DNA from: Massospora cicadina
Taxonomy: Eukaryota; Entomophthoromycota; Entomophthoromycetes; Entomophthorales; Entomophthoraceae
Direction of reading: 5' to 3'
DNA: 64,000 nucleotides
Assembly (NCBI GenBank): GCA_022478985.1
Contig: JAKSZP010009286.1
Coordinates: 124,001 to 188,000 of the forward strand
The notes under the pieces were generated by a model. It ran no database searches and was not told where the DNA came from. It worked only from the letters and a program-made list of their open reading frames with translations. The position numbers were made by a program, and so were the translations under genes. Of this stretch, positions 15,698-63,525 are shown in pieces. Each line of letters begins with the position of its first letter. The first letter of the stretch is position 1.

Positions 15698-15781
15698 GGG
15701 CTTTTCTTTCTCGTAACAATCACTTTAGTTACTTATTATTTGATTCAAACAGCAAATTTTGGATAACCACACACAGGAAAA

Positions 15782-17160: not shown

Positions 17161-17221
17161 ATGGTGGGATAGGACCAGAGGGTCCTCCCAACCGCTCCTA
17201 AGGCGCCACAGGCACCTCAGT

Positions 17222-17960
17222 TCAATAGGGACATTAAATATCGCGGGAGCCAGGGCTCATAAGTCCCAAGCCAAAAAGCTGGCATTCCTGCGAAAACCTC
17301 TTGTAGACATCTTAGCCATCCAAGAAACCCACTGCCTACAAGGGGAAGAAGAATACTGGTCAACCAGGGTCGCACCATCACAATCAGTATGGACATCTCA
17401 CTGTGGGGTGATAGTCCAAAACAACAAAAGATTTAAAATTACAATTTCATCATCACACTTGCATGGTTGAGTCCTGGTAGCAACAATCACATGCCAAGAT
17501 GAAATAATTTCGCTAGCATGTATCTACGCACTGTGCACTGCAACTGAGAGAAAAAAAATTTGAAAAATTTTCTACCCTCACCCTCCCACCAGATATCATC
17601 ATATTAGGCGATTTCAACTGCTGGGATAACCCCAATACAGATTGATGGCCTAATCCTAAGGGATACCCACCTGGTCACATTGAATATCGCACAATGAAGG
17701 CATCTCTTGGCTTACAGGATGCTTTTCCTCCCAATTCACCAATCCTTCCCCATATGACAAGACCCAACATACGTGAGGGACTGCTCATATCAATGAGTCA
17801 TATTGACCACATCCTCATCCCACAATCCCACCACTCAAGAATCTCTAAATTTACAACAAAAAAGATCAATTTTTTGATCACCAATTAGTTATGGTGTAGT
17901 TAGTGCCAACTAATTCCCACACACAGGTGTCGCCTTGGAGAAAGCTTCACCCAGAAAATA
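17222..17960 (+). pseudogene. LINE1 ORF2, endonuclease domain
   Basis: Begins TLNIAGARAHKSQAKKLAFL and continues DILAIQETH (the 'QE' metal-binding motif, about 17308-17334). Further on come ILGDFNCWDN (about 17600), SHIDHILIP (about 17790) and FDHQLVMV (about 17874), in the order of the exonuclease-endonuclease-phosphatase fold that nicks target DNA. These key residues are all still readable but are spread over several frames, with stops at 17470, 17560 and 17645. Confidence 0.85.
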
Positions 17961-18138
17961 TAAGATTGACTGAAATATCTGACTGGGTTGAAAACAAGGC
18001 TACAAACCCAGATAAACAGCCCCATTCACTTCAGATCCCATCATAACATGGGAAAATTTCAAAAAAGATATAATCAACAAAACCTGACATATTGCATCAT
18101 GCAAGTAGACCGCGGACACAGCCACAATCAAGCGTACC

Positions 18139-19818
18139 TTGGAAGAACTAGACCACCTGGAAATAAATACTCTGAGATCTGGCTATAGCCCTAATTGGGG
18201 ATGCAAATGGGCAGAAATTTCAGCCCGACTTAACAATCTCATCTTTGAACACCAACACAGAATCAAAGTATTGAACAAAGGTAAGTTCATAAAGGAAGGC
18301 GAAACCTGTTTGACATACTTTTTCCGCCAATTCCACTCCCGCAGAAACCAGCCCATGTGCACACAGGTCCGCAAGACCAATGGCACTGTGGCAACTAACC
18401 CTGAGGAGGTCAAGGCAGAAGTACACCGCTATTACACCGAATTATATCGCGATATGCCAACAGATCCACAAAAAATTAAAGAATATATTCAAACTTCCAA
18501 GATACAAAGTACACCACCAAATTACAATATACTATCCCTTATCACACAGGAGGAGCTTTGGGAAACAATTCGCGGTGCACCACGTAGGAAATGCCCAGGG
18601 CCTGATGGGATACCCTACGAATTTTACAAAAAATATTTTTTAACAAATCGCCCCCCCTCCTATTGGCGTCAATGAACCAAAGTTTGTTGGAAACACGCCT
18701 ATTACCATGGAGGCCATTAATCCTACGTTATAACCTTGTATAAAAAGGGTGACAAGTTGGACCTGGCCAACTGGCGCCCAATTGCAATCTCCAACACTGA
18801 CACAAAAATTCTAACAAAAATTCTAGCAGCTAAATTAGGCGCAATTGCAACTGACGCCTATCACCCAACCAGTTTGGGTTTATACCAGGGGCGTTCAATT
18901 TGGAATAACATTCACCCTGTTGCAAATATTTGCCAATCCAAAGCAACTGGTGCCCTGGTCTTCTTGGATCTGGAAAAGGCGTATGACCGTGTTAGCTGGC
19001 CATACCTCAAAGAATGTCTACATGCCTTCAAACTCCCACCAAGATTCATAAAATGGGCGATGCTCTAACAGAATCTGCAACCATGGCTGTATGCGGCCCT
19101 GGATTCCTAACAAACAAGATTAAACCACACAGAGGGCTCAAACAAGGGGTTACCTCATCCCACTGCTATACAATTTCAGCTTTGACCCGCTCTTCTGAGT
19201 AACTGACTCACGTTTAATGGGGATAACCCACAAGGACAACCAACAGTCAAGATACTGGCCTTTGCATATGACTGCGTAGCAGGTATAGCAAACAATGAAG
19301 ATGACCAACAGCTGGATCACACTCTAGAGGAATACTCCAAGGTGAGCAATGCATCGCTCAACAAAAGGAAGACAGAAATCATCCTCTTAGGCAAATACAC
19401 AAACAATTGGGCCACAACATCAGAACCTCACACCAACACTCGAAGAAAAAGCCCAATTATATTACCCTTTGCAACACCTCCCACCACCTCTCCTGTCCAA
19501 CACCTTGGAATCTGGCTAGAATCAGGGGGATATGCTAATGAGACAATGGAAAGTAACCTGTTACAACGGGTATCCAAAGGCGTCGCCTCCCTCAAGGGAA
19601 GAACCCCAGGATTAACAGGACGAGTTACAGTTGCTAACTCGCTCATCCTCCCAATACTGTGGTACCAGGCCCATGCGATAGCCTTCTCACTTACCTTTAT
19701 AACCTCAATTCACGCGCTTATCCAGGGCTGGCTGTGGCCTGGCTCTCACCCTCCTATACGGATGGAAACACTATTTGGCCCACGCTCAAGCGGAGGCATG
19801 GGACTAATAGATTTCTGA
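18139..19818 (+). pseudogene. LINE1 ORF2, reverse transcriptase domain
   Basis: RT blocks in order: RKCPGPDGIPYEFYKK (about 18586), YKKGDKLDLANWRPIAISN (about 18736), VFLDLEKAYDRVSW (about 18958), HRGLKQG (about 19129), then the catalytic box at 19261-19272. That box reads FAYD instead of FADD, so one catalytic aspartate is replaced. The thumb-like part continues through HLGIWLESGGYAN (19501) and the frame closes at 19818. Stops and shifts occur near 18675, 19068 and 19198. Confidence 0.9.
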
Positions 19819-20800
19819 GAGCCATGCCAATCACATCTAGGTACCTGGATAAAGGGAAATCCTTGCTCCAGACCTCCCGCAACAACATTGGTCCAGAGCA
19901 GCAAGGACTAACTTTGCACAGGCGCTCAAATTAACCAACCCACATAGTCCACCCAGACTACTTTCATACCTTACCAAGCACCCTACTGCAACGGGTCCAC
20001 ATGGAACCTCCCCTCATTTAAAACATATCCTCCGAACTATCCACCGTATGGGATGGACCATAGAGAACATGGGTACTATACAGGGAAGGGGACGACCCAG
20101 CCCCCAATTCAAATTAAGAAACCCGAAAACCACCCCCAGAGGGATATGCTCGCAACAACCCCAAGCATAGCTAGGATAGAATACCTAGATATGCTGGACA
20201 TTCCCTATGATTTAACCACACAGAAAGCAATGTGGAAAATGACACACCACCCACTCCTACAACCAAGGATAAGAGCAAACGCCTGGCGCTGTTTGAGAAG
20301 GACCTATAGGATGGCGGATCGCTCCAACTCCATCCACAAACATGTGCAGTATGTGGAGGGGAGGGATCCCTACATCACCGCCTAGAAACATGCCCCCCAA
20401 CCAAAGCTATATGGCAGGAAGTCGCACGCCTGCTCAAGATTCAAAACGAACAGGAATTCTCGATATAAAAGAATATCTTCACACTCCAGATCGAGTCACC
20501 AATCCCATCTACACTCCGCTCCCTAATAATACCCATTGCAATGTGGACAATACACACAATTGCATTAGATGTGTTTAAGGGCACAGTCCAACCATTCATG
20601 AGATTATTAACAGATTTCATGTCCACTTACTAGAGCACTTCCAAGCCTGGCTCTATGGATATATGAGACCAAGACAAAAAGCGCTCATAGAATCATGGTT
20701 CCCACTCTGGTTCCTCCACACAGACCCTTTCCTTCACACCTGCTCCATAGCAGGGGAAACCCCCTTGGAGTAGTGCACCAACCCCCCCATACCTGGCAGT
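19819..20800 (+). pseudogene. LINE1 ORF2, C-terminal region
   Basis: Out-of-frame fragments matching the LINE2 C-terminus: RIEYLDMLDIPYD (20172), RANAWRCLRRTYRMADRSN (20275), then the zinc-type C..C...H..C region now scattered over two frames around 20340-20410, and ESWFPLWFLHTDPFLH (20690). Homologous LINE2 segments are at 61130-61700. Confidence 0.8.
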
Positions 20801-20886
20801 CCCGCTGGCAACAGGGGTAACTTGAGTACCCCGGGGTAACCAATTTTTATATTTCTTAGTTATTCTCTTAGTTTCACATATATTCG

Positions 20887-20929
20887 GTAATGTCTGTCCC
20901 CTGGTCAGCTTATCTCGGTTAAATACAAA
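20887..20929 (+). other. LINE1 3' tail shared with the H elements
   Basis: The block gtaatgtctgtcccctggtc at 20887-20906 recurs, sometimes with a few changes, in LINE2 (61837-61852) and, on the minus strand, in H1 (48727-48748), H2 (56128-56146) and H3 (52755-52776). The end is an AT-rich ttaaata-type tail rather than poly(A). A conserved 3' end is what a LINE RT recognises. Confidence 0.8.
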
Positions 20930-20945
20930 TATTTTACCACCTCAG

Positions 20946-46100: not shown

Positions 46101-46960
46101 CCTGATTGCACTTTCAAACGCTGATTATAAGCTCCTTACATACTAATATCAAACTGCCTGATGTGTACTACCTTATGGACTATCCATACATCTCAAAATG
46201 GTTTCATCAAGGGGCGCAATATCTTGGTTAGTATAAGCTCAGTCCAAAATGTTCTGCAGGACATGCGTGGGGAGGAGAATGGCCATCTAATGTTTTTGGA
46301 CACGGAGAAGGCTTATGATTGGGTAGCATTCATTCCTATGGGCAGTAATGGATGTCTTTGGGATCCCACCCACTTTTATCACCTGATTCACATGCTGTAA
46401 ACATGCCTTATGACTAGTATTATTGTACCTGATGGTTTAATGAATCCTATTATAATTGGACAGGGTTTCCACCAAGGCGATCCATGCACCCAATTTAATT
46501 TTGCATCAAATATCATGTTAGCCATAGTGGAAGAACAGTTGAAGGGCATAAGTAACCCAGTAAGGCCCCATTTTGGATGAAAGCATTGAAGATGACACAG
46601 CGGTGGGGATCAGCTATGAGAATGACCTTCAGGGCGTCAAGCAACTCCTTACCTTATACCAACAGGATTTAAACGCAAAAGTTAATACTGACAAAACTGG
46701 AATAATATTGGGCTAGCCTCACTTCTCTCCGCCATATGGTCTCACTCCCTTGCTCCCACCCAAACATTTGGGTATTTGGTTATTCTTTTTTCTAAATCAG
46801 GACCAGCAGTGGAAGTGATGGAACAAGCAGTTCCTTCCACTATGATGTCCTAAATAGTCTATTGAGAAATTTTCGCTTGAACATAGAGGGGAAGGTGTAA
46901 GCGCTTAATGTTTTTATACTTTCAAAACTCTGGTATGTGGCCCACATTCTCCCACTGAGT
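46101..46960 (+). pseudogene. LINE3 reverse transcriptase remnant
   Basis: The open piece at 46161-46400 carries NGFIKGRNILVSISSVQNVL and HLMFLDTEKAYDWV, RT blocks 2a and A. Then GQGFHQGDPCTQFNF (about 46460), IEDDTAVGISYENDLQGVKQ (about 46585), where the usual Tyr-Ala before DD is Ile-Glu, and NVNTDKTGIILG-like (about 46684). Distinct from LINE1 and LINE2 in wording, so a different family. It lies in pieces with stops. Confidence 0.85.
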
Positions 46961-48300: not shown

Positions 48301-48707
48301 TGAAGGTTTTTTAGAAGGGTTAACCTTGCAGGGCAATTCCTGCTTCCACTCTAGTGCAGGTTTTTCTTGATACAGTTTTGAAACCAGTACTGGCTAGAAA
48401 AATCGCAGTGTGATAATATGTTTCAAGGTCAACCTGCCTTGAATACTGTATAATAAGAACATTGGTAAGAGGGATGGCGAAATGGGAATTTCAACCAAAT
48501 TAAAAACAGCCAGGATTAAATGCCATTAATTGTTTAGCATCACAAATCAGGAATTGTGAGGTCTGTGTTTATAACTCACCAAGAAATGACTATTAAAAGG
48601 TTAGAAAATCAGTTTTTGTGCGGGGTCAACGCCTTCAAGTTTATATTAAGCCCAGAATACTTCTATAAGGAGGTAAACCGTGGGGTGATAAAAGGTATCA
48701 TATAGTT
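48301..48707. other. Unassigned flank of H1
   Basis: No gene. It is contiguous, through the H1 TSD (48692-48707), with 50662-51155, so it may be the rest of the gypsy7 3' LTR. I cannot place the outer LTR end. Confidence 0.35.
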
Positions 48708-48849
48708 CTATTAAATGAGGTAAGCCAACCAAGAGGACTGACATTACCAAACTAAAATTAAAACAAAAATTAACTTTACTAATTGAATCAAAAAAACGCC
48801 CAAATGAGCGGATTAAATGAAACACACCAACCAAACAACCAGCCAGGTG

Positions 48850-49481
48850 GGGAGCGAATACTGCTATCTCTCCATGGTGGAAGGGGAGGGGGGATCAGGG
48901 GGCTTATCTTTGGCAGCAGCTTCCTCATCCCAGAGTAGGTATGTGTTAAGGCAGATAGCAAGGGCTTTGGGGAATTGGCGACATGTGGTTTGATATCTCT
49001 TAGATGGTACTTATAAGAAATTGTCAACTTTGAAAATGGCAGTGATATATTTGGCTAAAGCTTTTTTGGCTTTAATGCAGGCGTCTGGTAGTTTAACAAA
49101 CGTGGCAGTAATGGTTCAGCTAATCTTAGCTTTCTGATTCCGTGCTACAGTTACCACGTTCTGGATAGTGTCATTGACAATTTTGTGCAATTGATTAATA
49201 TCAATCCTACTTTTTTTAGTAAGATTTACGGGGATAACAGGAGGTAGAATTCCTCCTGTGAGTATCGCCACTAATTTGGTGGCAGCTTTGCGAAGGAGAT
49301 GACAATCTGATTTGGCAGCTGCTTCTACTGCAAGCTGGTGGTTGCTGTAGAATGATTCAGCATTTGGCTGTGGGGCATATAAACAAGGGGGGAATTCTTC
49401 ATCCCATTCTACACTAAAGAACTGGTTGACTTGCAGAGATGGCTCTTCAATGTAATTACCTGATTTTTTAATTTCATCCAA
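48850..49481 (-). pseudogene. H1 C-terminal domain, unrecognised
   Basis: 121 open codons (49116-49481) followed after a stop by more coding-like sequence to about 48850. It contains FYSNHQLAVEAAAKSDCHLL, RKAATKLVAILTGGILPPVI and INQLHKIVNDTIQNVVTVAR, an alanine/leucine-rich helical pattern. The end reads PPWRDSSIRSPPGWL. H2 (56185-56460 and 61892-62170) and H3 (52860-53400) preserve both blocks. No RT, endonuclease or protease motif. The function is unknown. Confidence 0.6.
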
Positions 49482-49559
49482 TAACTCCCATGGGTTCTGG
49501 TTGAATTGAATTGGGGAATTGGCTTATGGTTGAGGATTGGTTGATTCTTTGGAGGATGC

Positions 49560-50583
49560 ACGGGATCAAACTAGGGCCCCATCCTGTGCTTGATTGGGTG
49601 GAGCTTTTGTGGCACTTGGGCGAGGAGGAGGCTGATTGGTGGCTGCAGGTGCAGCTGCAGCAACAGGCTTTGGGGGAGGGGGAGGTAGGATCGTACCCCA
49701 TGCCAGAACTGGTGCAGGGTGGGTGGTAGATTGGGGGTCAGCGGGCGAAAAATCCAATCCGTTGGAAGTAACTATGGAGGAGTACTTGCATTTTGAGTGG
49801 TCCAACTCAAAACAGGATGGGCAGATCGTCTGTAAACCCTCGACGTGGGCCCAAAATGGATGGTCAGGGGCAGGTGGAATGATGAAGTGAGGGGGAATCA
49901 AAGCAGCAATTTTACTAAATTCAGGGCTGATTGTGGCATATGCCCGAGGCCAGCGAGGCGTGTGGCCCCATTTGGGACCACAAATTGCAAGATGGGGTTG
50001 GAGCCATAGGCTGCTAAACTGTCCATCAGCTCCTGGTGGAGCACCACAGGGGGGAGGTGGGTGGGCAAACCATAAACTGGACCATCAAAGTGGTGTCTTC
50101 TGGGAGCCAAGTCTGAATTGTGGGAAGAGGGGTATTCTGGAATACCAGGGCACAGTTGCCGCAATGGCGGCGTTGGCTTCACAGGTGAAGCCAAGGTCAA
50201 AATACCCCTTTATATGGGCGGAAATCAGTAAAACTGGTGGGAATTATCACCACCTGTGTCATTTCAATAATGGCTTGGTCATGGTATGGGAAGAGTTTCT
50301 ATAGTTGACCCTTAAGCTGTAGCACATGTTGCTCTGGGGGAGCACCATAGGCAGCGAAGTACTACTTGGATATGAGCAAGGTGGGCATCGAGATCCTTGG
50401 GAAGCACAAATCATCCCAGGGGTTTGGTATGACTGTGCGAGCCAGTCTGAGCACGTTTTCCTGCCAGACAGAAAATGGTGAGGGGTTTTTGCCGCTGCCC
50501 CATACTGGAGCAGCCATCAGAGAATCCGAGGGCATTGGAGTGAAACTACAGCGGGTGATTGAAATTACTTTCTTGTTTTCCAT
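49560..50583 (-). pseudogene. H1 ORF1-like frame with zinc knuckle
   Basis: Minus strand from an ATG at 50583. An N-terminal basic part (frames shift near 50360) is followed by FRPYKGYFDLGFTCEANAAI (about 50213-50154), resembling the RGWLDLGF/CSWIDIGF segment of the LINE ORF1s. Next come Pro-rich linkers and a knuckle-like CPSCFELDHSKC at 49788-49823 (CX2CX4HX2C; the last spacing is two residues shorter than usual). A Pro/Ala-rich linker follows (PPPPPKPVAAAAPAATNQPP). H2 carries the same order of parts. Confidence 0.7.
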
Positions 50584-50677
50584 ATAAGTTGCTCATAAAG
50601 TTACACCGATTGTAAAGAGGTTTTAATAGCAATCACACTTGTTTAACAGAGTATAAACGCTAAGGTATCATACATTT

Positions 50678-51155
50678 AGACAAGATACTATTAGTGTTAT
50701 TACAATAAGGAAGACAACCAACAGAGAGATTGGTCAAACAAAAATTGCTATTAAGGAATTTGGGGAACTATACAAATTTAAGCCAAATAAATGAAAAACT
50801 ACCATCAAAGGTAGTCCATACCATGAGCAGGTAGAAACCTGAGACTTAAAATTGAGATGAATATTACCTGTATTATTAATATGCTATCTTAGAAACAAAC
50901 AAACGATCATTACTGATAAAATGTAATGAACTATCCCCATCTACAACATATAGTGTGATTCTTTATGACATTGATGTAATGGCGCAAACCTCTTCACGTG
51001 ACTTCTTAGAACCAACCTGGGCCTGCCAGGTCTGCACCTAGCGTAGATCTAAGGTATAAAAGAGATCAGCAAGGGCAGCCAACTAGTTCCTTTGGCTTTT
51101 TCACGTCCTCCCTGTTTCTTCAATTTACTCCACAATCAGGTCATGAGTCGTGACA
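50678..51155 (-). repeat. Gypsy7 3' LTR, part next to the purine tract
   Basis: On the minus strand the gypsy7 coding ends in a purine tract CCAGAGGGTAA (51156-51166) followed by TGTCACGACTC, the LTR start at 51155. A TATA-like TTTTATACC lies near 51055. The far end of the LTR is uncertain because H1 is inserted close by and no 5' partner is in the window. Confidence 0.6.
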
Positions 51156-51289
51156 TTACCCTCTGGATTTTGAGGAACCTTCCTCCTCCAATGAACTCAG
51201 CAAGAAAAAGTTTTATAAGCCAGATGTAACTTCATGGCAACAATGGTTGGATTATTCTTAGGACCAGAAGCCACAGGGAACTTCCTATG

Positions 51290-51430
51290 GAATGCGTTAA
51301 TCAAGTCTTAGGCATGGCTGAAATTGTGAGCTGGAACACAGCTTTTTTCTGCGCATCAAACCCCTTTCTATGTATCAGGTATTCCAGATTTTTATCTAAA
51401 CGCCTAGAGGCCACAATACTCTCAACTTCT
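51290..51430 (-). pseudogene. Gypsy7 chromodomain
   Basis: VESIVASRRLDKNLEYLIHR and KGFDAQKKAVFQL on the minus strand match the gypsy4 chromodomain. The usual Trp after YLV is replaced, so the aromatic cage is damaged. Confidence 0.75.
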
Positions 51431-51599
51431 CACCCTGGTTACCCATTCATAAAGTATAACTCTGGGTTTACTAGAAGGGGTCCCTCAAATTGGTCAATTT
51501 ACTCTCATGGAATGTAGAAAAGATGGGAACTTTGATGGCAAATCCTCCTAGTAAGAAGCATGACCAACCTTTTTTAAATATGTGATAAGGACCTATTCT

Positions 51600-52440
51600 C
51601 TTTGGCCTCAGTTCCCTTCATTTTTTATGGGGCTATTCCTGGAATCAAGAATCGCCAGAACTCCTCCTTACACTCTGGCTCAAACCTTCTCTTACCATCA
51701 GCTTTCTCCTTATAAGTCTTCATAGATGCTTCCAAATTGGTATTTACCTCTTGATTTTCGAAAGGAACTTAAAAAGCCCACCTCATCTTTTACCTTAAAT
51801 CCACACCTGGGTTCCAGGTTAAATATGGATTATAACCATAATTGGCAAAGAAAGGAGAACACCCAATAGATAGATGTTGGGCGTTGTTATAGCTAAATTC
51901 TTCTAAAAGCAGGTGGGAAGCCCAATCTGAGTAGTCAGAAGCTTTGTAGCACCTTAAGAACAGTCTAAGGCATTAGTTCAATCATTTTGTTGCTCATCAA
52001 ATTGAGCATGAAAGGCACTTGAATTGCAAGGGCTTATCTGGTTAGTCTTTCACAACTCTTCCAAAAATAGAGATATGAACTTGGGTCCACAGTCACTAAT
52101 AATCTCCTGGGGAACCCCAAGAGCTGAGAAAGCGTGGGAACAAAATGTTTAGCCATCTGGGCCGCCGTAATTGTGGTATGACATGGGATGAAGTGGCTGA
52201 ACTTGTTGAAAAGTTCCAAAACCACATTAATAGCATCATGTCCCTTAGATAAGTGTAACTCCACAATAACATCCATGATAGGGAAGTCCAGGACCCTTAT
52301 GCTTTCTGGACAGGTACCAATAAGCATTAGGGGCTGACGATCTGGTTTCATCCTGTTGCAAACAAGGCACTCCTTTCCATAATGTGAAACCTATGCAGAA
52401 ATTCCTTCCAGTTGTATGTACAGCATTTAGGCTCTATGTT
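51600..52440 (-). pseudogene. Gypsy7 integrase remnant
   Basis: The minus-strand open piece 52034-52351 begins KPDRQPLMLIGTCPE and continues with GLPYHGCYCGVTLI-like sequence (frame shift) and NKFSHFIPCHTTITAAQMAK, nearly the same wording as gypsy4. Further left, pieces such as the DSWASHL-like block continue to about 51600. Catalytic residues are damaged: the second block reads TVDPSSYLYF instead of SDRGPQF. Confidence 0.8.
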
Positions 52441-52472
52441 TTCGCCTTCCCAGAATAGTTATGGTTGTTCCG

Positions 52473-52723
52473 TCATGACGCTCCTTGATTATCTCCTGGC
52501 AAAGAGGTCCAGCGGGAACCCATATGTGTCTCTGGAACCATACCATATCGATTCTTAAATGTTATCCCTTCATAAAGTCTTCCTGGTTCAAGTTTCCCTT
52601 CATAAAAATTGTTATGTATTCTAAAGACAAAGACTGACAAAAAGACATGTATGAACGTAATATACTCTTCCAGGTTCTCCAAGGAAGTGAGACCAGCAGC
52701 AGCAAGGTTTATAGGTTGCTTAT
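52473..52723 (-). pseudogene. Gypsy7 RNase H-integrase linker
   Basis: SNKQPINLAAAGLTSLENLE, then FYEGKLEPGRLYEG and MVPETHM, the 'Y..G...VP' entry to integrase. It joins across H3 to KIMS at 53730, which restores one reading frame. Confidence 0.75.
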
Positions 52724-52733
52724 TTGACATAAT

Positions 52734-53719
52734 AGTATATTTTTTGATATACGCTGATCAGGGGATGGACATTACCAATAGTCAATGAGCAAAAGAACCA
52801 AACAAATGAATGAACAGAACAAAAAATAAAGCAAAATTTCCAACCAGATGGGGAGCGGAATACCACTAACCCAACATGACAGAGGTTGAAGAGGGGTTGG
52901 GCGTCTCTTCTACAGGAATATTGTTCATGACAGAATCATTATGGTTGTAGAAGCGGACAAAAGCAGAGACAGGGCGTTGAGGCATCAGCATGGTGGGGGT
53001 GAATGGCTGTGAAAAATGGGTTTTTTCTTTAAGATCAGCTTGGAAAACAGCTTCAACTAATTCTGCTAGATTGTGTTCAGCTTGTAGGTGGGTATCGGGG
53101 ATTTAGTCAACTTGGTTATGTTCTGCTGTGTGATTTTAGCAGATGGGTCAAAATCTGCTAGTTTCACAACATGCATGACATCATTTTTGGAATCATAAAA
53201 CAATTTGGTCATTTTTCCCTGTGCTACTTCAGGGAAATCAGGGGGAAGATGAGTGTGGTCAGCCTTTTATAAAATTGAGCCATAGATTAGGCCACTGCTT
53301 TGCGGAGGACTGAGCAATGGGGTGAGGCCACCACTGGTAAGGCGAGCTGGTAGTCACTTTCTGTAGGGGACGGCATTGGATTTAGGAGTGAATCTTTTGG
53401 GGGATAGGGTTTTGTCAAAATCAGAATTGTAAAATTTGGCTATTTATAATCCATCATGTTGAGGGGTTCACTGGGTTTCTTATTCGTGATAAAATTATCT
53501 GATTCGTCAACCTTAGCCCATAGGTCCCAAGGATTCTAGTCACAAGAATAGTGGATGTAGAATTGTGGTGGGTAGTAGTTAAATGGGTTTCTTGGGCGAA
53601 AATGGTGGTCTAAGCCTGACTCTGATTGGCAGAGTTGAATTTGGGTGGTTTAATGTGGGTGGACGATTTGGTGGGGGCTGATTTATCATTCTGGCCCATT
53701 GAGTAAGAATGTTGGGTAA
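52734..53719 (-). mobile_element. H3, 5'-truncated ORF1-only retroposon
   Basis: 986 bp between copies of ttgacataat (52724-52733 and 53720-53729), extendable to 12 of 14. Minus orientation, with the LINE tail block at 52755-52776. It keeps the C-terminal domain of the H family (SDYQLALPVVASPHCSVLRK against the H1 block) and ends RSPSGWKF-like. The zinc-knuckle half is missing, as expected from 5' truncation. Gypsy7 reads straight through once it is removed. Confidence 0.8.
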
Positions 53720-53729
53720 TTGACATAAT

Positions 53730-54330
53730 CTTAAAATGAAGAATTACCAATTGCATGTTAGGGAGCTCCACATCTTTGGGGTCAGTATCCAATATTGCAT
53801 TTTGACTTATGGCATCGCCAACCCATTCTCCTTGCCTTTTGTAAACTCATAAGAAAACACAAATTTTGCAAGGTTCTCATACCACTGAGCTTGGCGTGGA
53901 GTCAGGACATGATGGGCGTGGTATAAAAACAATGCGCAATGATCTATATGAACATATAATGCTGTGAAGAGCTATGTAAATGATGGCGCTAATAAGGTAA
54001 TGATCTCACTACTACCAGTAATATCTTAAATAGAATGTATAGTTTAACTCTAATAGTAACTTTTTTCAGGAGAAATATTTGATGGATGTTACACTGCATC
54101 TTTGTACACTTGCAATAGAGCTGCAGCAATAGTTAAATTGGAGATATCACTGAACCCTATAAGCTACTTGCTTGAGTCCACACGGTGAAGTACAGGGGTA
54201 GAAAGCAGCGTTCACTTCACAGCTTTAAATGCATCTTTCAAAGTGGATGACCACTGAAGGGATTTAGCACCACTGATCTTATACAATGGTGTATCAACCT
54301 CTGACAAACTAGGTGTAAACTTATTAAGAT
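53730..54330 (-). pseudogene. Gypsy7 RNase H remnant
   Basis: On the minus strand: LKDAFKAVK near 54245, PVLHRVDSSK near 54195, then HCALFLYHAHHVLTPRQAQW, YENLAKFVF and KGKENGLADAISQNAILDTD, the typical end of gypsy RNase H. Several stops lie in the first half. Confidence 0.85.
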
Positions 54331-55020
54331 AGTGTATGTTCCAAAAAAACTACATAAAAACTTTTACTGAGGTAGGCGTGAGCCAATTGTAAATAGCTTT
54401 CTCCTTGTCTGGAATTATCATATGACCCTGGTTAAACACAATTTTACCAGGGAAGGTGACCTAGACTTAATAATTCACATTTTCTGAGCTTCAGCATCAG
54501 CCTAGCCGCTCCTAAATGCTCTATTACTTGCTGCAAATGAACCTCATGAGATGCTTGATCAGGGTAAATAACAGTATGTCTTACATTAGGTTACAGCGCA
54601 TACACCCAACTCTTTCAATGCTGCATCAATATGACGTTAAAAAGGTGCATTTTTTAGCCCAAAAGGCATAACTGGAAATGGAAAATCCCCTTTTTGGTAA
54701 AAGAATACAGTGAGCCATTCCTGAACCTTTCTGATGCAAATCTGGTTAAAAGCGTTCAAACAATCCAATTTGGAGAAAACTTTAGCTTTATATACAAAAA
54801 ATTTGTGCCTCCACCAAAATAGGATGTAGATCAGGTATGGTGACATTATTCAGGATATTATAATCTACATAAGGTTGTAGATTACCATCTGCTTTTTCCA
54901 CAACAATAAGTTGTGACCATACAGGAGAGCTATGCTGAAATATAATCACTTTTATAGCTTCTCTATAATCCAAACATCTAAAGCTGCCTCTTATCATAAA
55001 GTCAAAGGGTATATTGGAGA
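54331..55020 (-). pseudogene. Gypsy7 reverse transcriptase remnant
   Basis: Minus strand: QLIVVEKADGNLQPYVDYN (about 54915-54860), then KVFSKLDCLNAFNQICIRKV and FPFPVMPFGLKNAPF (54640-54780). The YxDD box downstream is unreadable (stop in VCAVT*CKTYC), so the active site is lost. Confidence 0.88.
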
Positions 55021-55266
55021 ATAAATGTGAACAAGGTCAACTGTGAGTTTAAAATCTCAGTCAAATTTGGAATGATCTAGTAAGACACTTTACAAGCCAC
55101 ATCAAATAACTATCTATCCCTTCCAGATAAGAAGACAAGGCACTTCTGAAGTTGGCTTCAGCAGTGTTGCATGACTGAGTTTGTTACATTTTTCCATTGA
55201 AAATTTTCTTTGATGGATGACTTCAGACAAGAGGATCACAAATACTGCCCACTCTATGAGAACAAC
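55021..55266 (-). pseudogene. Gypsy7 protease-RT spacer, right-hand cut at NA2
   Basis: Reads LSHATLLKPTSEVPC and DFKLTVDLVHIYSPIYPLT. Gypsy4 has LAPLLKPSVEVP and EFKLTVDLVHISLPIT at the same place (33827-33990). The continuation is at 63526-63690. Confidence 0.75.
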
Positions 55267-56085
55267 TTTCAAATTTTTAAGGTTGACTAAAAATTAACCC
55301 AGTTAAAAACCATTAATTTGGGCAATTATTATTAAAATAAACCTGGCAATTATTCCTTAATAACCGTGCTCCAAGCTGACATAATCAAAAAATTGTCCTA
55401 AGATTGATACTTGAAATTCACTCTGAAAATCCCATGGTCTTATAACAACTATAAGATTGCCATCATAATATCACAATCAGGTTTCTTTCCTATTGTAAAT
55501 TTGTATGTCATTTCTCAAAATTGGCACAATAGCACTTGCACATGGACAGCCCAGATGGGAATTATAATTGCTATTAAAATTCCTGATGTCATCCAAATTA
55601 GGGGTACATCATTTACCTTAAATAGATGCCAAATTTCTCAGAAGTCATATTAAGTCAGCTGTATGACAAAAATTAAATTAGGCTGACATGACAATATTGC
55701 ACATTTGAGTTGCAATTTTAGCACTTGGAAACCTTCATAATTTTGAAAGTATTTTGCCACCAATACTCTTAGTAAATGGTCATGGTTGTATCAGTTCTTG
55801 GGCCAAACTGAGGTGAAAAAATAGCTTTTTTAGCACTAGGTGGTCCCAACTTAAAGGGAGGATACACTGATCTCTGAGGTAAAAATAATATCAGAAGAAA
55901 GTTACTTGCTCAAAGTATGGCCAGTAGATGCCCTAGAGGCATGGATACCAGCGCCTGACCAAGTAAAATATTACCAAATACTATATTTTAAATATAAGAT
56001 ATTTTCTTAATTTTATTTTGTTTTATCAAAGTTTTCCTATCAAGAGTGTCAACAAGCTTTTAGGACAGAAATCATCAGCTTGTAT

Positions 56086-56101
56086 TGTTGCCTGCGTTTG
56101 T
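56086..56101. other. H2 target-site duplication, left copy
   Basis: tgttgcctgcgtttgt, repeated exactly at 63307-63322. Confidence 0.95.
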
Positions 56102-56184
56102 TTTTTTCTTTAATTGAGGTAAGCCAACCAGGGGACAGACATTACCAAACTAGAACTAAAAATATAATAAACTAAAATATTGAT

Positions 56185-56611
56185 TCAAATGAAAACCCCA
56201 AAATGGACAGATTTATTGAATTGTACATAACAAAATATCCAACCAGGTGGGCAGCGAATACTGCTATCCCTCCATGGTGGATGAGGAGGGGGGATCGGGG
56301 GCTCATCTTTGGCCACATCCATCTCATTCCAGAGTAGGGTGCGTGTTAAGGCAGATAGTAAGGGTGTGGGGGCATCGGCGGTATGGGGTTTGATATCCTT
56401 GATGACTGGAACTTCCAAATAGTTGCCAGCCATCATTATACCAGCGATGTATTTGCCCAAAGCGTCTTCAGCTTTGAGGTGGACATCTGGGAATTTAACA
56501 AACGTGGCAATGTTGGTTCAGGTTATTTTTGCTTTCAGATTCTGTGCTACTGTTACCACGTTCTGGATTGCTTCAGTGAAGTTTTTGTGTAAAGTTTTCA
56601 TGTTGATCTTA
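56185..56611 (-). pseudogene. H2 C-terminal domain, distal half
   Basis: 91 open codons ending PPWRDSSIRCPPGWIF, with VIKDIKPHTADAPTPLLSAL, near-identical to H1 (SKRYQTTCRQ/HVANSPKPLLSAL). Upstream the frame is cut by LINE2 and resumes at 61892. Confidence 0.7.
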
Positions 56612-56706
56612 AAACTTTTCTCTCTTGTTGCAATCACTTTTGCAACTTATTCAATTCAAGTCTTAATCTAGTTTGATAATCTCACAGAGGAGATTAGTCT
56701 GCGCCC

Positions 56707-57820
56707 ATGTCAGGGAGCAGTTGGGCAAGTAAGGTAAGAGGCACAGGTGGTAGGCCCGCGACCTCCAACATTCGAAAATGCCCCAGAGAAACTGGTGGAA
56801 TAGAAAAAAGTAAAAAACTGGCGGTCACTATTTCCCCAGAAATCCTCACTTGGCAGGCGCGATGTAACCAGTACATCAACACGCCACACTCTCAAACACT
56901 CTTGTCAGTGGAATATGGAGTCTGGGTGTTTCTGGATATCCAACAAACAGCTTTATGGGAAAAGTATTTGTGGGGATGTGCACACTATTTCCTGACCGTG
57001 GTGTACATCGCACCTCACTTCATGTCACGTGGTTGGCTGGACCTTGGTTTCAAAAATAAGGAGGCAGCAGACAAAGCTGCTGTGGTGCGCATAGTGATTG
57101 ACCTCCCCGAAGGGCAACAGGTCGCTGAAGCCAAACGCACCAGATGGACAAAATCCAACCAAATTTTCCTCACATTCAACTTTTTGCCCACTACAGTCAA
57201 GCGTGCCGCTCTGGAGCAGCACCTGAAAGATGGTCTCACCATATACAGTGAAATACAATCCTTTGAGATGCAACGCTTTACACTGATGCCACACCTGTGC
57301 ACCGGCAAAGCCATTGCAGTTCTGACTACAACTGAGGAGATCGCAATGGACCTAACCTAAATCCCACACTCCACTTATATCAATATTGAAGGGCATACCA
57401 CCCACCCTTTCTGGGTAACTGTAGACAGCGCACCCCCCCATCTTCACCCACTGTGACGCGTTTGGCCATAAGGCACATGCATGCCCCACCAAGGAGGGCA
57501 TCACATTCCAAGAGCACCCCTCAGCGGCCATGGCCAGCGAGAGGTGCACTATGAACCAACCACCAGCACCAAAGAGGCTTTCCCATGGGGAGCACAAGGC
57601 TGCTACTCACTAGTAAAGCCTATCTCCCCTCAAGAGCGAAAGAAGGCCAAACAGGCCTGCAGGGCTATAGCCAAGGAAGCGGCCAATGTCGCCTCTGCTA
57701 TCCCACACTCAAATGCCAGGAGGACATCGAAACCTTTGCTTGGAAGCAACTTGGGAATCCCTCAACCAATCAGATTGGGAAGCCCATGCCAATTGGGCCA
57801 CCCAGTCTGAGGATCTGATG
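56707..57820 (+). pseudogene. LINE2 ORF1
   Basis: 217 open codons from ATG 56707 (MSGSSWASKVRGTGGRPATS) contain VEYGVWVFLDIQQTALWEKY and RGWLDLGFKNKEAADKAAVV, and stop at 57360. Past that stop and a one-base shift near 57440, the knuckle reads IFTHCDAFGHKAHAC. Its first Cys is replaced by Phe, the rest fitting CX2CX4HX4C. A Lys/Ala-rich tail (KKAKQACRAIAKEAANVAS) continues to about 57810. The protein would coat LINE RNA. Confidence 0.88.
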
Positions 57821-58129
57821 GGTGACTCGATCTCACCTAATCGTTGCACCCAAGCTCCAGTCTAAACTGACTTGGGACCCATCCTACCTTAATAAAAAAA
57901 TTTTGACCCAAACGTTGGTGCACTGAACTCATCTGCACCACAAAAAATTCGTTCAACGTTAGGGAAACAAAAAAGTGAAGGCAAAAGCCAACGTGAACCT
58001 GTCTGCTAAAATTAACAAAAATACCAATAGCATTGCTGCAAACACCTGTGCTGCCATGAAGGCCCGTGGGGATCCAGAGAAGGCTGGTGGGCCCAGGTGC
58101 CCACCCCCTTGCACCTAAGGTGTGGAGGG

Positions 58130-58830
58130 GAAGCCTTCACTTTAGGGATGTTAAATATCTCCAGACTCAAGGCCTTGCCGTCCTGGGCTAGGAAACTAAG
58201 TTTTTTACAAAAAATTTACCTGTGGACATCCTGGCCATCCAGGAGTCTCACTGTCTGAGAGGTTCTGAGGACACTTGGAAAACCATGCTCCTCCCTTCCC
58301 TATCCTTCTGGTCTGAGCACTGTGGGGTGCTTGTTCAGAAAAACAATTTTCTTAAATTTTTATCATCTGAATCCTTCCTTAATAACTGAGTCCTTGTTGT
58401 CACATTTTTGTGGGCCGACGTGGTGCACGCTATCATCAACATTTATGCCCCAACCTGTGCATTAGAGCGTCAGGAATTTTTTTCAGCAGTCAAATCCATT
58501 ACATTACCCCCTGACCCCTTCATAGTTGGCAAAATGAACTGTTGGCTAAACTCACCCATGGACCGTTGGCCTTCCTCATCCCACGCCCCCCAGGGTCATG
58601 TAGAACTTCGCGTTCTAAAGGCCACCCTTGGGTTATTAGACGCGCTGCCACAGCAAGCCCCACTGCTCAAAAACATGATGTGCCCCCACATCCACAACGC
58701 CAATTAAGGTCCATGACCCGCATCAACCTTATCCTCACACCAGCAAAATTTCAATCTCAAATTTCCCACTTCCAAACAACAAAAATCAAATTCTACAACC
58801 ACCGGCTGGTCTTAATAACCTACCACTTAC
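58130..58830 (+). pseudogene. LINE2 ORF2, endonuclease domain
   Basis: Starts with LGMLNISRLKALPS (58147), shifts near 58205 and continues DILAIQESHCLRGSED. The VVTFLWADVVHAIINIYAPT block (58396-58455) is clear. The catalytic segments have decayed: GDFN is GKMN (about 58527), DHILIP is NLILTP, and YDH is YNH (about 58795). Three metal-ligand or catalytic positions are changed, two of them Asp to Asn. Confidence 0.88.
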
Positions 58831-59700
58831 CTGTCACAGTGGCTAAGGCCCCGCATTGGTGCAAACTCCACCCACCCAAACTTGCGTCTCCAGGATTTTC
58901 CTTTTGGGTGGAATCAGCGACTTTGGTAAAAGAGTTTATTACACCATTTTTTGTGGACCCATTTTCCACATGGTCAGCCTTCAAAGAGGATACCATCCGC
59001 CACACTCGCCACCTCTCCTCCCAACGCTCATGAGCTACATCAGCTGTCATCTTGCGCGCTCTGGCAGAGTTGGCACACCTGGAGTCCAACATCCCAGCCA
59101 CAGGCTACAGCCCTGCTTGGGGCCAGAAGTGGGCAGAAGCAGCTGCCCACCTCAACGCGCTCAAAAGGCAACACAAACATCAGGTTTATGTTCAGTACAG
59201 GGCCAAACATATTACAGAGGGCGGCACGTACACTGCATATTTTTTAAAAAATTCTTCGCACCACGCCAGAGCATGACCTGCACACAGGTGCAGAGATCGG
59301 ATGAATCTGTTGCGGATATGCTGGCCAAAGTGGCAATCAATATACAAAAGTATTACTCCAAGTTGTACCAATCTGATCCAATTCAGCCAGCCAAAGTGGT
59401 GAAATTTCTCGACAGCACTCACATCTGCACCGTTTCCCAATACCCAGAATTAATGGATTTGATTACTCTTAAGGAACTCTGGTCAGCCATCCACGGTGCA
59501 CCAAATCGGAAATTCCTAGGCCCAGATGGCATTCCAAATGAATTCTATATTAAGCACTTCAAATATATATCCTCACTGCTGCTTGCCTCCCTTAACCAGA
59601 GCCTTCTGGAAACGCGCCTTCTTAAGGAGGGCAAGAGGCCTTCACCATCAAAGTCTTCAAGAAAGGGGATAAGCTAGACCTAGCCAACTGGTGCCCCATT
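58831..59700 (+). pseudogene. LINE2 ORF2, linker and RT entry
   Basis: Overlapping frames carry the pre-RT helices. The open piece 58856-59677 ends with YPELMDLITLKELWSAIHGA, PDGIPNEFYIKHFKYISSLL and LNQSLLETRLL, which correspond to LINE1 18530-18720. A shift near 59640 leads to KKGDKLDLANWCPIL. Confidence 0.85.
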
Positions 59701-61271
59701 CTTTAACTAACACGGATACAAAATTTTTTTTCTAAAATCATGGCTAACCGTTTAGCAGTTGTATCATCTGCCACCATCTCCCCAGAACAATTCAGTTTCA
59801 TACCCAGAAGGTCGATTGGGGACAACGTGCACTCTGTGGCTAATGCATGCCAGTCCACAGCCTCTGGGGCACTTGTATTTTTGGACCAACAGAAGGCCTA
59901 TGATAGAGCAAACTGGAAATACCTCAGGGCCTGCCCCATGAGTTCCAATTGCCCCCTTGCTTCATCAACTGGGTAATGCTGCTCAGGGAATCTGCAACAA
60001 TGGCAGTGCGTGGCCCTGGCTTCCTAACGGAAGTAGTCCGCCCTCAAAGGGGTCTACGCCGAGGGGACCCCCTCAGCCCACTCTTATACAACTTCAGCCT
60101 TGACCCACTACTTCGAAACGTGAATGCCCACCTAATTGGGGTACATGTACCAGGCCAAGCCCCAGTCAATATGATGGCGTTTGCAGATGACTGTGTGGTT
60201 GGGGTGTCTAATAATCAAGATGCACGCGCTCTTAAAGCTCTCATCCAGGAGTATTCCTGGGTAAGTAATGTTGCACTGAACGCTTCAAAAACCGAAATCA
60301 CCCTCCTTGGTCGGTATCAAACCTGCTGGGCCCCAGCGACCAATGCCCAGCCTGGCCCATCTTCTCACACATGTGCTCGCCTTCCCTGCTCACCCCACAC
60401 CGCCCCACTGGTGCTCCCCTTCGTGCCACGCCCTACCATAGGGCCTGTCCGCCATCTGGGCGTGTGGGTGGAGGCAGGCGGGTATACCTCAGCAGTAATG
60501 GAAAGTCATATTCTCTATAATGTTACGAATCATATCGCCTCCCTCAGAGCCCACCCTACTTCCCTTACTGGCAGGGTTTTTTTAGCCAACTCTATGCTCC
60601 TCTCCAAAGTCTGGTTTGGAGTCCACGCCATCCCCTTCTTGCCAAGCTTCTTCAAATCCTTGTATGCTCTACGGCAAGGATGGCTTTGGTCAGGCCGCCC
60701 TCCACCAGTACGTCTAGAGGTCATGTTTGGCTTTCATCATCATGGTGGCATGGGTCTGCTCGACTTCAGAGCCCATGCTGCCAAGATCTTGGGTACCTGG
60801 ATTGCGGCTGTCACTGCCCCTACGCTCCCCTCCCAACACTGGTCCCGCTCGGCCTGCTCCAACTTCATCTGCGCCTTATGCCTCAACAATCCATTGAACC
60901 CTCACTCCCTGATGAAGTACCTGGCTTCACACCCATCGGCCACAGGTCCTCACGGGACTAAAGCCCACTACAAACGAATCCTCCTCTCCATTCGGAGTGC
61001 TGAGTGGAGAATTCGTATTAGCAGACACACAGCCCAGAGAGGCCGCCCCTCTCCTCAGTTCACACAGGAGGTACAGGGGTTACCCATTCAAGATGGCGTG
61101 ATCCCCACACGGCCCCATGTCCTATCCAGGGTGGACTACCTGGACATGATGGACATCCCTTATTCCATTGAGACAGAAGACTATTTGAAATTATGCACAC
61201 CATCCTCTGTTGCAGCCTCAAATCCGCTCCCATGTGTGGCGCTGCCTGAGGCGGGTGTACCGTATGGCTGA
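59701..61271 (+). pseudogene. LINE2 ORF2, reverse transcriptase, 440 open codons
   Basis: 59740-59976 carries blocks 2 and A (VFLDQQKAYDRANW, with the first catalytic Asp). After one shift, 59949-61271 is open for 440 codons: RGLRRGDPLSPLLYNFSLDP (60048), FADDCVVGV with the FADD box intact at 60180-60191, SKTEITLLGR, HLGVWVEAGGY, TGRVFLANSMLLSKVWFGVH and GGMGLLDF. The longest open frame in the window. It ends by a shift just before the C-terminal zinc region. Confidence 0.93.
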
Positions 61272-61805
61272 GCGCTCTAATGCTTTACACTCATCCTGTG
61301 TCGTGTGTGGCCAGTATGGAACGCTGTTCCACCGCCTGGAGAAGAGCCCCACCTCTAAAGTGATATGGCGCGAAGTCCAACGTCTGCTTGGCCAGGATCA
61401 AACACATCCCTTCATCCTGTCAAGAGATATGTTTGCTTTATCAATGGCCTCCCCCTTTTAACCTCCCTCCGTGCTCTGGTGGTTGCAATCGCCATGTGGA
61501 CCATCCACACGATTGTCTTAGATGCCATCTCAGGCTCCACCCCCACCCTCCCAGAAGCTGTCCAAAGATTCCAGTCTCAATTGGTGGACCACTTTCAGGC
61601 GTGGATGTTTGGGTACCTCCCACCACGTCACCGTCAGCTGGTCTCCTCCTGGTTCCCAGTCTGGTTCATCAAATCAGACCCCTTCCTCCACACTGTTCAA
61701 TTGTGGCTATGGCCCCTTCACACGTTCCCTCCCCCTCCTCATAAGTGGCGTTCCCGCTGGCAACAAGATATCATCGCTTCTCTGGGGTGCCTTCCCTGTT
61801 ACTAA
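61210..61805 (+). pseudogene. LINE2 ORF2, C-terminal zinc region and end
   Basis: QIRSHVWRCLRRVYRMAERS, then SCVVCGQYGTLFHRLEKSPT (61290-61349), the C..C....H region where the last Cys is Ser, and KVIWREVQRLL. After shifts, IAMWTIHTIVLDAISGSTPT and SSWFPVWFIKSDPFLHT match LINE1 20540-20740. Ends near 61800. Confidence 0.85.
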
Positions 61806-61891
61806 GTTTCATTTCTTTCAGGTCATCATTTGGAAGTGTCCGTCCCCTAGTCGGCCTTCCTCACAATAAATTAAATTTCATGTTGATCTTA

Positions 61892-63230
61892 CTTTGTGGA
61901 GTAAGATTTATGGGGATGACGAGAGGTGGAATTCCTCCTGAAAGCGCAGCAACAGATTTTGTGGCAGCTTTGTGAATCGGACAGCAATCTGGTGTGGTGG
62001 CTGCTTCTAAAGCAAGCTGGTGGTCGCTATAGAATGGTTTGGCGTTAAGTTGTGGGACATATCTTTGAGGTGGGAATTTTGCATCCCATCTGCATTTCAG
62101 AGCCGCTTGAGTTGCAGCATCAGTTCTTTAATGACGTTACCTGATTTGTCAATTTTATCCAAAAAATTCCCATGGATTTTGGTTGAATTGGATTGGGGAA
62201 TCAGCGTACAGTTGAGGTTTGTTCAATTCGTTTGTGGATGCATGGTATCAAACTGGGATCCAATCTGATGTTTGGTTGGATGAATTATTTGTGGCATTGG
62301 GGCAAGGTGGATGCTGATTGGTGGCTGCAGGTGCATCTGCAGCATCAGGCATTGGAGGAGGGGAAGGTAGGATCATACCCCACATCAGAGTTGGTGTGGG
62401 GTGGGTGGCAGATTGGTGGGTGTCAGGCAAACTTTCAGCGTCACAGAAGTTTCTGAGTATGGGCACCTACATTTTGAGTGGTCTAACTCATAAACAGGAT
62501 GGACAAATAGTCCATCTGTCCTCAACGCGGGCCCAGAACAGATGGTTGGGGGCAGATGGGATGGTGGCATGAGGGGTAATTGCTAAAGAAATTTTCTTAA
62601 TTTCAGGGCTGATCATGGTATATGCCTGAGGCCCAGCGAGGCGTGTGGCCCCATTTGGGCCCACAAATTGCAAGATGGGGTTGGCGCCGTAGGCTGCCAA
62701 ACCTTCCATCAGCTCCTGGTGGAGCACTTTGGGGGGAGATGGGTGGGCAAACCAGCGAACTGGACCAACAAGGTGGTGTCTATTAGGAGCTGGGTCTGAG
62801 TTGTTGGGAGGGAAATATTATTAAAAATTAATGGCACTATTGCTGCAGTGGCTGCATCAGCTTCACAGGGGATGCCAAGATCAAAGTACCCCTTATAGGG
62901 GCGGAATTTTATGAAATAGGCTGTTGTCATCACCGCCTGAGCCATTTTAATAATGGCTTGGCCATTGTAGGGGAAGAATTTCCCATATTTGACCCTAAGC
63001 CAAAATGCATGTTGCTCCGGGGGAACACCAGGGGGCAGCGGGGTACCGCTTGGGTTTGGGCAATATGGGCATTGAGATCCTTGGGAGGCATGAATTGCCC
63101 CAAGGGTTTGGAATGACTGGGCGAGCCAGTCCAAGCGCGTTTTCCTGTCAGATGGAAAATGAAGGGGGAGTTTCGCCACTTTCCCTAAGCTAGGACAGTT
63201 GGCGGGGGATCCACCAACATTGGAGCAAGA
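61892..63230 (-). pseudogene. H2 ORF1-like frame and proximal part of the C-terminal domain
   Basis: Minus-strand open piece 62709-63179 (156 codons): TRLDWLAQSFQTLGAIHASQ, CPYCPNPSGTPLPPGVPPEQ and FRPYKGYFDLGIPCEADAAT, the ORF1-like core. After a shift, TICPSC (62488-62727) and ELDHSKC (62385-62570) are two halves of the knuckle split by one frameshift. Pro/Ala linkers follow, then sequence matching the H1 block FYSNHQLAVEAAAKSDCHLL, up to the LINE2 insertion. H1 and H2 share this order exactly. Confidence 0.75.
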
Positions 63231-63525
63231 CTTTGGTGTGCAATTAAGTGTTTGCTTTTAATTTACTGATATTAATTTGCTCGGAAAGTTATAACAAGCA
63301 GAGAGCTGTTGCCTGCGTTTGTAGAAATTCCAAATTTGTAGGAAAAAATGAGCCCAAATTGACCATAAGAGTCATATTATTTTGAAATAGCTTAGTGAGC
63401 CTCTAAACAGTTTATATACTGTAAGACAAAGGCGAAAAATTTGTAAATTTTTAGCCAAACTTCTTGTCAATTTAATATGCAAGATTTTAATAAACAAGCA
63501 AGCAATCCTCAACCTTAACAATAAT

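Follow-up and report, generated by a model that had tools for sequence, protein, structure and literature searches.

The element that we call H is represented by three copies (H1, H2 and H3) in a stretch of 64,000 nucleotides (nt) of the Massospora cicadina genome (assembly GCA_022478985.1, contig JAKSZP010009286.1, positions 124,001 to 188,000; hereafter the window). We put at about 0.8 the probability that H is a long-lived family of non-long-terminal-repeat retrotransposons of about 1.9 kb which encodes only an ORF1-type protein (ORF, open reading frame) and is mobilised in trans by long interspersed nuclear elements (LINEs) sharing its 3' tail. H1 and H2 belong to a discrete element of about 1.92 kb, each copy lying between target site duplications (TSDs). 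The DNA of H1 (positions 166-1951 of 1954) is about 76% identical to that of H2, into which a LINE (LINE2) with its own 16-nt TSD (56596-56611 and 61876-61891) has inserted; without LINE2, H2 measures 1,925 nt by arithmetic. The 10-16 bp TSDs reported for all three copies in the initial annotation, made from the window alone, are exact over 11, 16 and 10 nt respectively. As a chance control, 1,977 random window pairs were compared: a match of 9 nt or more occurred in 14 of them, of 10 or more in five and of 11 or more in one.

The assembly searched comprises 1,469,884,898 bases in 16,968 contigs. A DNA search with H1 turned up 12,741 first-look candidates; 40 of these were scored (L001 to L040, H1 included, each with its flanks). 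Apart from H1 itself these matches are 78-86% identical to the query, and 35 of the 40 span about 1.8 kb or more. A TSD finder applied to own-locus pairs, not to cross pairs, scored at least 9 in 26 of the 40 loci (H1 included), the duplications enclosing 1909-1959 nt, and 1909-1935 nt in 22 of these 26. The nearly equal lengths of H1 and H2 had been read as the sign of a discrete unit, and a full-length class with TSDs does exist, at about 1.92 kb rather than the proposed 1.95 kb. H1 exceeds the usual length by about 40 nt because its 5' end differs from those of the other copies, whose matches end at or before query position 1917 of 1954. When the ends of the 30 complete-ended loci were compared within and between loci (the other ten had incomplete ends or short flanks), a score of at least 9 was reached by 20 of the 30 own-locus pairs versus 3.1% of 870 cross-locus pairs, and a score of at least 11 by 14 of 30 versus 0.23% (2/870), so that the TSDs persist when more copies are compared. 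H1 scores 5 here, though its 11-nt TSD is exact, because its atypical 5' end falls outside the compared stretch; L002, below the print threshold of the finder, scores 17. The two cross-locus pairs scoring at least 11 are attributed to L002 and L007, which carry an identical TSD sequence and, flanks included, are 86.5% identical over 3.4 kb on two contigs; they represent one insertion, because the same TSD lies within a segmental duplication. This stretch is in itself an old segmental duplication containing an H insertion. H copies end in the tail and a short A-rich stretch such as TTAAATAA, followed by the TSD, with no poly(A) tail, and they show the hallmarks of target-primed reverse transcription, namely a fixed 3' end, TSDs of variable length and some 5' truncation.

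The majority sequence of 41 copies (the 40 loci, H1 among them, and H2) holds one frame, from nt 90 to about 1844, of 585 codons with four majority stops. At the stops 1062 and 1512 the copies are divided between TGA and CAA (some copies having CGA at 1062), and at 519 between CAG and TGG, as expected if these three were decayed CpG-bearing Arg codons; the fourth, at 1614, falls at a mixed site. Reassignment of stop codons in H was considered and dropped, since the stops at 519, 1062 and 1512 fit CpG decay of Arg codons and 1614 is a mixed site. CpG decay is strong throughout L001-L040 and H2, with 128 sites of TG/CA-mixture dinucleotides against 56 remaining CpG in the majority sequence, which suggests CpG methylation or a process like repeat-induced point mutation acting on repeats in M. 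cicadina. The longest open stretch in any H copy is 291 amino acids, and none of the copies examined is intact. At non-CpG sites of nt 90-1650, the variants carried by at least eight of the 41 copies (shared variants) fall on codon positions 1, 2 and 3 in 29, 31 and 65 cases, out of 409, 447 and 407 sites, while singleton variants (269, 277 and 259) show no third-position excess. When three subfamily majorities and H2 are compared, the ratio of nonsynonymous to synonymous substitution rates (dN/dS) is 0.28-0.51 in the H frame and 0.66-1.08 in the two shifted frames. Taken together, the third-position excess confined to shared variants and the low dN/dS point to purifying selection on the H frame in the source elements while the element multiplied. 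The initial annotation had called H copies "passengers": a retroposed unit they are, and the word is too weak because the H ORF appears to be a selected protein gene.

The predicted H protein starts with a LINE-ORF1-type half that ends in a zinc knuckle; a Pro/Ala linker joins this half to a C-terminal domain specific to H. The knuckle has the form CX2CX4HX4C, seen in the open frame of copy L008 as CPSCFELDHSKCKC. That the frame is ORF1-like had been proposed by eye and was confirmed by profile comparison: hhalign aligned the H profile to ORF1 of LINE1, the other LINE of the window, with probability 93.9, E 1.5e-7 and score 60.9, whereas 59 column-shuffled decoys never exceeded 22.7 and the reversed profile scored 12.8. 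The homologous core reads TLVVQFAGLPTHLPPAVLHQELMDGLAAYG in H and TLFISFDSLPTNLPHKVIEEELRKGLVAYG in LINE1 ORF1, and a CX2CX4HX4C knuckle comes next in both; the first part of LINE1 ORF1, in another frame, gave no match to the H profile (0.9 and 0.2). The H N-terminal half also matched LINE2 ORF1 (probability 75.7, E 2.4e-5), and tblastn matched LINE1 ORF1 directly in 3 of 40 H loci. On these alignments the N-terminal half of H is homologous to LINE ORF1. The C-terminal region (341-570) behaves differently, with probabilities of at most 0.7 in 12 frames of the LINE1 and LINE2 ORF1/ORF2 regions compared with 96.9-98.8 in all four divergent H copies used as positive control. The description of this domain as unrecognised holds as well: among nine proteins of H, LINE1 and LINE2 and the natural H frames (18 of the N-half and 15 of the C-half), no Pfam family scored above its cut-off for H. 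A PDB sequence search with the N-half alignment alone returned nothing at E 1 or less, and the AlphaFold2 models (mean pLDDT 45 for the N-half and 46 for the mostly helical C-half) are too poor for a fold search. Type I ORF1 proteins are defined by an RRM upstream of the CCHC motif, according to the available text of one paper (PMC4120745); no Pfam RRM was found among the 18 H frames, and beta-alpha-beta pieces appear in the model of mean pLDDT 45. In the protein database the H frame has four matches at E 1 or less and the C-terminal alignment two, all of them hypothetical proteins of M. cicadina. The hypothetical proteins that match H include P0001-P0003, P0005 and P0006; in the published gene model P0001 (L0F63_007425) what looks by eye like an H N-terminus is joined to a stretch of LINE2-type ORF1.

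Four reverse transcriptase (RT) queries gave no match in any of the 40 H loci, flanks of 0.5-1.5 kb included (shorter at contig ends), the endonuclease not being searched separately. Within these flanks the H1-family copies do not look like 5' parts of longer LINEs with endonuclease and RT, and the lack of RT read from the window copies stands; the flank of L019 carries a piece of LINE2-type ORF1. Coding matches to H lie in 11 of 93 flanks and amount to 5,225 bases out of 74,640 in total (about 7%, from a small, biased sample that gives no genome estimate); this leaves out the flank L009_r, which holds part of the seed copy at a contig end and with which the figures become 5,598 of 75,120 bases and 12 of 94 flanks. 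In the window they cover about 4.5 of 64 kb (also about 7%, biased and no genome estimate), excluding the LINE1 ORF1 stretch 16212-16577.

H is not restricted to the family of H1. Protein matches to H were met by chance in the flanks of several loci, and three were extended (from L003, L053 and L008) to copies that cover nearly the whole H protein in pieces (1-575, 1-577 and 1-575), the main pieces being about 30-51% identical to it. All three carry the tail, that of C1711 with one deletion. Copy C6642 measures about 1.90 kb, with a TSD matching at 19/19 nt, and C1711 about 1.89 kb, with a TSD matching at 14/15 nt (score 12); for C7940 the TSD is unconvincing (score 8). Among 400 random window pairs of comparable size 115 scored at least 8, six at least 12 and five at least 19, these five presumably falling in repeats. 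No RT matched in the element stretches of the three copies, and the RT matches near C1711 belong to a neighbouring LINE1. With H3 as query 4,092 first-look candidates were obtained, of which 40 were scored; two H3-family loci with more 5' sequence reach the H N-terminus (31-42% identity) and contain, as translated by eye from the DNA, the knuckles CPLCFEFDHTKKSC and CPLCFGFDHSNKFC as well as the tail. The H3 copy in the window is therefore a 5'-truncated member of a second H family. The single plan that the initial annotation ascribed to H1, H2 and H3 accordingly holds for the first two, H3 itself consisting of C-terminal domain and tail; likewise the knuckle-like motif is real as CX2CX4HX4C, common to an H1-family copy and the two H3-family copies, with the last Cys read as Tyr in H1 and, in the case of H3, present only in its longer relatives elsewhere. 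Judged from families that have come to share about 30-51% protein identity and still keep the plan of ORF plus tail, with no RT in the copies examined, the H lineage is old.

The candidate partners are LINEs such as LINE1 and LINE2. One named RT match is 'Transposon TX1' of Smittium culicis, and the partner LINEs look L1/Tx1-like, which amends the fungal-type LINE named in the initial annotation. According to the available text of a published survey M. cicadina, with a genome of >500 Mb, has 6.3% L1 LINEs and is alone in this among the Entomophthorales of that comparison (PMC11105155). The LINE1 family is young: at all 21 loci of our set (L041 to L061, the window's own copy included) the copy measures about 5.2 kb and diverges by 2.6-3.8% from the majority; LINE1 copies that seemed to end at 3389-3811 were rejected as a split-alignment artefact. 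H2 and the window LINE1 are alike over 47 nt at the 3' end (83%), and a match of 37-48 nt to the H2 tail at 80-91% occurs in 20 of the 21 LINE1 loci, the exception being L047, whose LINE1 match ends before the tail. Outside the tail no DNA match of H1, H2 or H3 to LINE1 was found in the 21 loci at E 1e-5 (other LINE families were not searched); L042 carries a separate H2-like fragment upstream of its LINE1. A scan with the tail motif gave 67 matches in 345 kb and none after base shuffling, in sequence selected for H and LINE1 in which the window LINE1 appears twice; the H1 tail has one extra base and is missing from this list. The tail can form a stem, GGTAA/TTACC, replaced by GGAAG/CTTCC in the one LINE2 copy, and in 16 hand-chosen tails (that of C1711 misaligned) 81.4% of the stem positions pair versus 16-51% for slid partners. 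At L046:7287-8272 (-) nearly 1 kb of sequence ends in the shared tail, the upstream part matching none of H, LINE1 and LINE2; this is perhaps another tail-using element. The 5' ends of LINE1, LINE2 and H copies have a pyrimidine-rich start followed by ATCACTTT or ATAACTTT, and short complementary arms, which differ between families, flank this start in several copies. A possible 5' hairpin common to LINE1, LINE2 and H is not claimed, as many copies do not fold it.

A mechanism can be proposed from these features. H RNA would be translated, and the H protein, binding RNA through its knuckle-bearing half, would coat its own RNA. The endonuclease and RT of a LINE would recognise the same tail and insert the H RNA by target-primed reverse transcription, the ORF2 protein of a LINE1/LINE2-type element thus acting in trans. 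A process of this kind should leave copies that share one 3' end, are either complete or truncated at the 5' end and lie between TSDs of about 10-19 nt, and such copies are what is observed. As to the C-terminal domain, contact with the ORF2 protein or multimerisation may be guessed at. A wider interpretation, which we offer tentatively and at somewhat less than even odds, is that H forms an old, diversified clade of protein-coding satellite retrotransposons whose long survival without a polymerase may depend on an RNA-coating protein of their own, on the LINE tail, and on an added C-terminal domain, possibly an aid in capturing ORF2 protein from LINEs. On this view these elements, as stable LINE parasites, may make up a substantial share of a giant fungal genome, perhaps several percent.

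Several observations weigh against mobilisation of a selected ORF1-only family by tail-sharing LINEs, or soften the evidence for it. The 40 H copies were picked by score out of 12,741, which biases them to full length. All are decayed (10.2-15.3% from their majority, H2 19.6%), and because of this present activity of H is not demonstrated. If the same frame is carried over arbitrarily to the untranslated regions, shared variants are unevenly spread there as well (5, 15 and 18 of 99, 101 and 101 sites), and dN/dS of 39 copies against the majority of their own group averages 0.53, below 1; with such a mean this comparison is no clean neutral baseline, and the selection controls are thus imperfect. 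For the LINE1 endonuclease, Pfam gives a weak match that falls below the cut-off of the family (Exo_endo_phos, E 0.14). Shuffled tails pair as well as the real stem in 185 of 500 cases and reach as high a covariation score in 97 of 500, and pairs changed on both sides number 4 versus 2.2 in shuffles (23/500); we therefore claim conservation of the tail and not covariation. Finally, a LINE with endonuclease and RT that carries an H-type ORF1 and the C-terminal domain could still exist elsewhere in the genome, beyond the H loci inspected (45, H1 included, and H2 and H3).

Such a LINE is at the centre of the most serious alternative, by which H copies would be separate deletions from an unseen autonomous lineage with an H-type ORF1 and C-terminal domain, the selection being partly that of the parent LINE. 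The number of loci inspected leaves room for it, and HAL1 elements of mammals originated independently several times, as the available text of one study has it (PMC5753468). We consider this unlikely, given that in the divergent lineages the tail follows shortly after the protein match and that both copies with two ends found measure about 1.9 kb, that the C-terminal region reaches no more than 0.7 in the LINE1/LINE2 frames versus at least 96.9 in the divergent H copies, and that the database matches of the H ORF all come from M. cicadina. A single selected ORF without RT would also be expected if H copies were retrocopies (processed pseudogenes) of a domesticated, LINE-derived host gene, and L1TD1 of mammals is such a gene as far as the accessible part of the source goes (PMC4161310); this is very improbable, because H has split into a number of strongly divergent lineages, first-look candidates run into the thousands for at least two of these (12,741 and 4,092), and the LINE tail, which a host mRNA need not have, is kept in the H1, H2, H3, C6642, C1711 and C7940 lineages. 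The broken frame of every copy seen could be taken to mean that H is SINE-like (SINE, short interspersed nuclear element), with only RNA and tail mattering and the frame a dead ORF1 relic, an idea that seems less credible still in the face of the third-position excess of shared variants, the dN/dS of 0.28-0.51, the frame and knuckle conserved between lineages, and the lack of any tRNA or Rfam match in the window from 48500 to 63500. LINE copies are commonly 5' truncated, and H could on that ground be a set of ordinary truncated or internally deleted LINEs with no character as a unit; the 1909-1935 nt of 22 of the 26 copies with TSD score at least 9, and the lack of DNA matches to LINE1 outside the tail (LINE1 being the LINE family searched), leave this hardly any likelihood.

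The proposed mobilisation in trans of an ORF1-only element would place H beside two known systems. HAL1 (half-L1) was named in the initial annotation as the closest analogy, and the likeness is genuine, with HeT-A of Drosophila telomeres equally close. As described in the available parts of two papers, HAL1 is a non-autonomous L1 relative with ORF1p only and with TSDs, dependent on the RT and endonuclease of full LINEs, and it has a poly(A) end and is an L1 derivative of several origins (PMC5753468, PMC5322556). H resembles it in its ORF1-type protein, its TSDs and the lack of an RT match (40 of 40 loci, the endonuclease not being searched separately), and differs in ending in a LINE-specific tail instead of poly(A), in the extra C-terminal domain undetected in LINE1 and LINE2, in having no DNA match to the 21 LINE1 loci outside the tail, and in its diversification to about 30-51% protein identity. 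HeT-A has the same kind of arrangement, a Gag-type ORF without RT, as far as the accessible text describes it (PMC5537684), and differs in inserting at chromosome ends without a TSD. Because H has no poly(A) and no recognisable parent family, and its insertions are TSD-flanked and not terminal, we file it under neither. The L1/Tx1-like LINEs of Massospora themselves share with H the ORF1 region homologous to its N-half, the CCHC knuckle and the 3' tail, and are unlike it in that both have RT, LINE1 also an endonuclease-like stretch, while the C-terminal domain of H is undetected in either. SINEs have no protein gene and often a head derived from a tRNA or another Pol III RNA, whereas H has 1.9 kb and an apparently selected ORF. 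The eel pair UnaL2/UnaSINE1 provides a precedent for tail sharing, the non-autonomous element having the 3' end of its partner LINE; that SINE has no protein gene.

The retention of an ORF1 protein by a non-autonomous LINE relative is a puzzle known, to our knowledge, mainly from HAL1 and HeT-A. H would add a third, fungal example that comprises several lineages, in which the protein shows signs of selection and the short tail is shared with young full-length partner LINEs. The system lends itself to testing whether the H protein acts on the RNA that encodes it and whether the tail recruits the partner enzyme. No ORF1-only LINE family of a fungus was found among the titles and abstract openings listed in a search on ORF1-only or Entomophthorales LINEs, whose coverage excludes most subscription papers, and the accessible sections of the published survey list LINEs and 'Unknown' repeats in M. 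cicadina and name no H-like family (PMC11105155). H may also have contributed to the growth of this genome, which is among the largest in fungi.

Table 1. Positions of H copies, partner LINEs and their parts in the 64,000-nt window.
Feature	Position	Strand	Remark
H1, full-length H element	48703..50661	-	1959 nt between TSDs
H1 TSD, element's 3' side, AAGGTATCATA	48692..48702	.	exact, 11 nt
H1 TSD, element's 5' side	50662..50672	.	exact, 11 nt
H1 ORF remnant: N-terminal region, ORF1-like region, knuckle, Pro/Ala linker, C-terminal domain	48789..50535	-	
H1 zinc-knuckle position (family form CX2CX4HX4C; last Cys = Tyr)	49782..49823	-	position counted by hand on frame
H1 3' tail, related to LINE1, LINE2, H2 and H3 tails	48716..48749	-	read from sequence
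H2 5' part, up to nested LINE2	61876..63306	-	
H2 3' part	56102..56611	-	
H2 TSD, element's 3' side, TGTTGCCTGCGTTTGT	56086..56101	.	exact, 16 nt
H2 TSD, element's 5' side	63307..63322	.	exact, 16 nt
H2 3' tail	56114..56146	-	tail scan
H3, 5'-truncated member of second H family: C-terminal domain and tail	52734..53719	-	
H3 TSDs	52724-52733 and 53720-53729		exact, 10 nt
H3 3' tail	52744..52776	-	tail scan; 5 mismatches vs scan motif
LINE1, full-length: ORF1 with CCHC, endonuclease-like stretch, RT	15698..20929	+	last ~45 nt match H tail
LINE1 TSDs	15682-15697 and 20930-20945		
LINE1 3' tail common to H	20886..20918	+	tail scan
LINE2, ORF1 and RT, nested in H2	56612..61875	+	RVT_1 E 6.9e-11
LINE2 3' tail, GGAAG/CTTCC replacing GGTAA/TTACC	61832..61864	+	tail scan; 6 mismatches vs scan motif

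Two further features of the window lie outside the elements of Table 1. A remnant of a third, distant LINE RT, about 30-56% identical in pieces to the RT of LINE1, occupies positions 46066-47110 (+), and a 98-nt unit is present as a perfect tandem duplication at 23297-23492.

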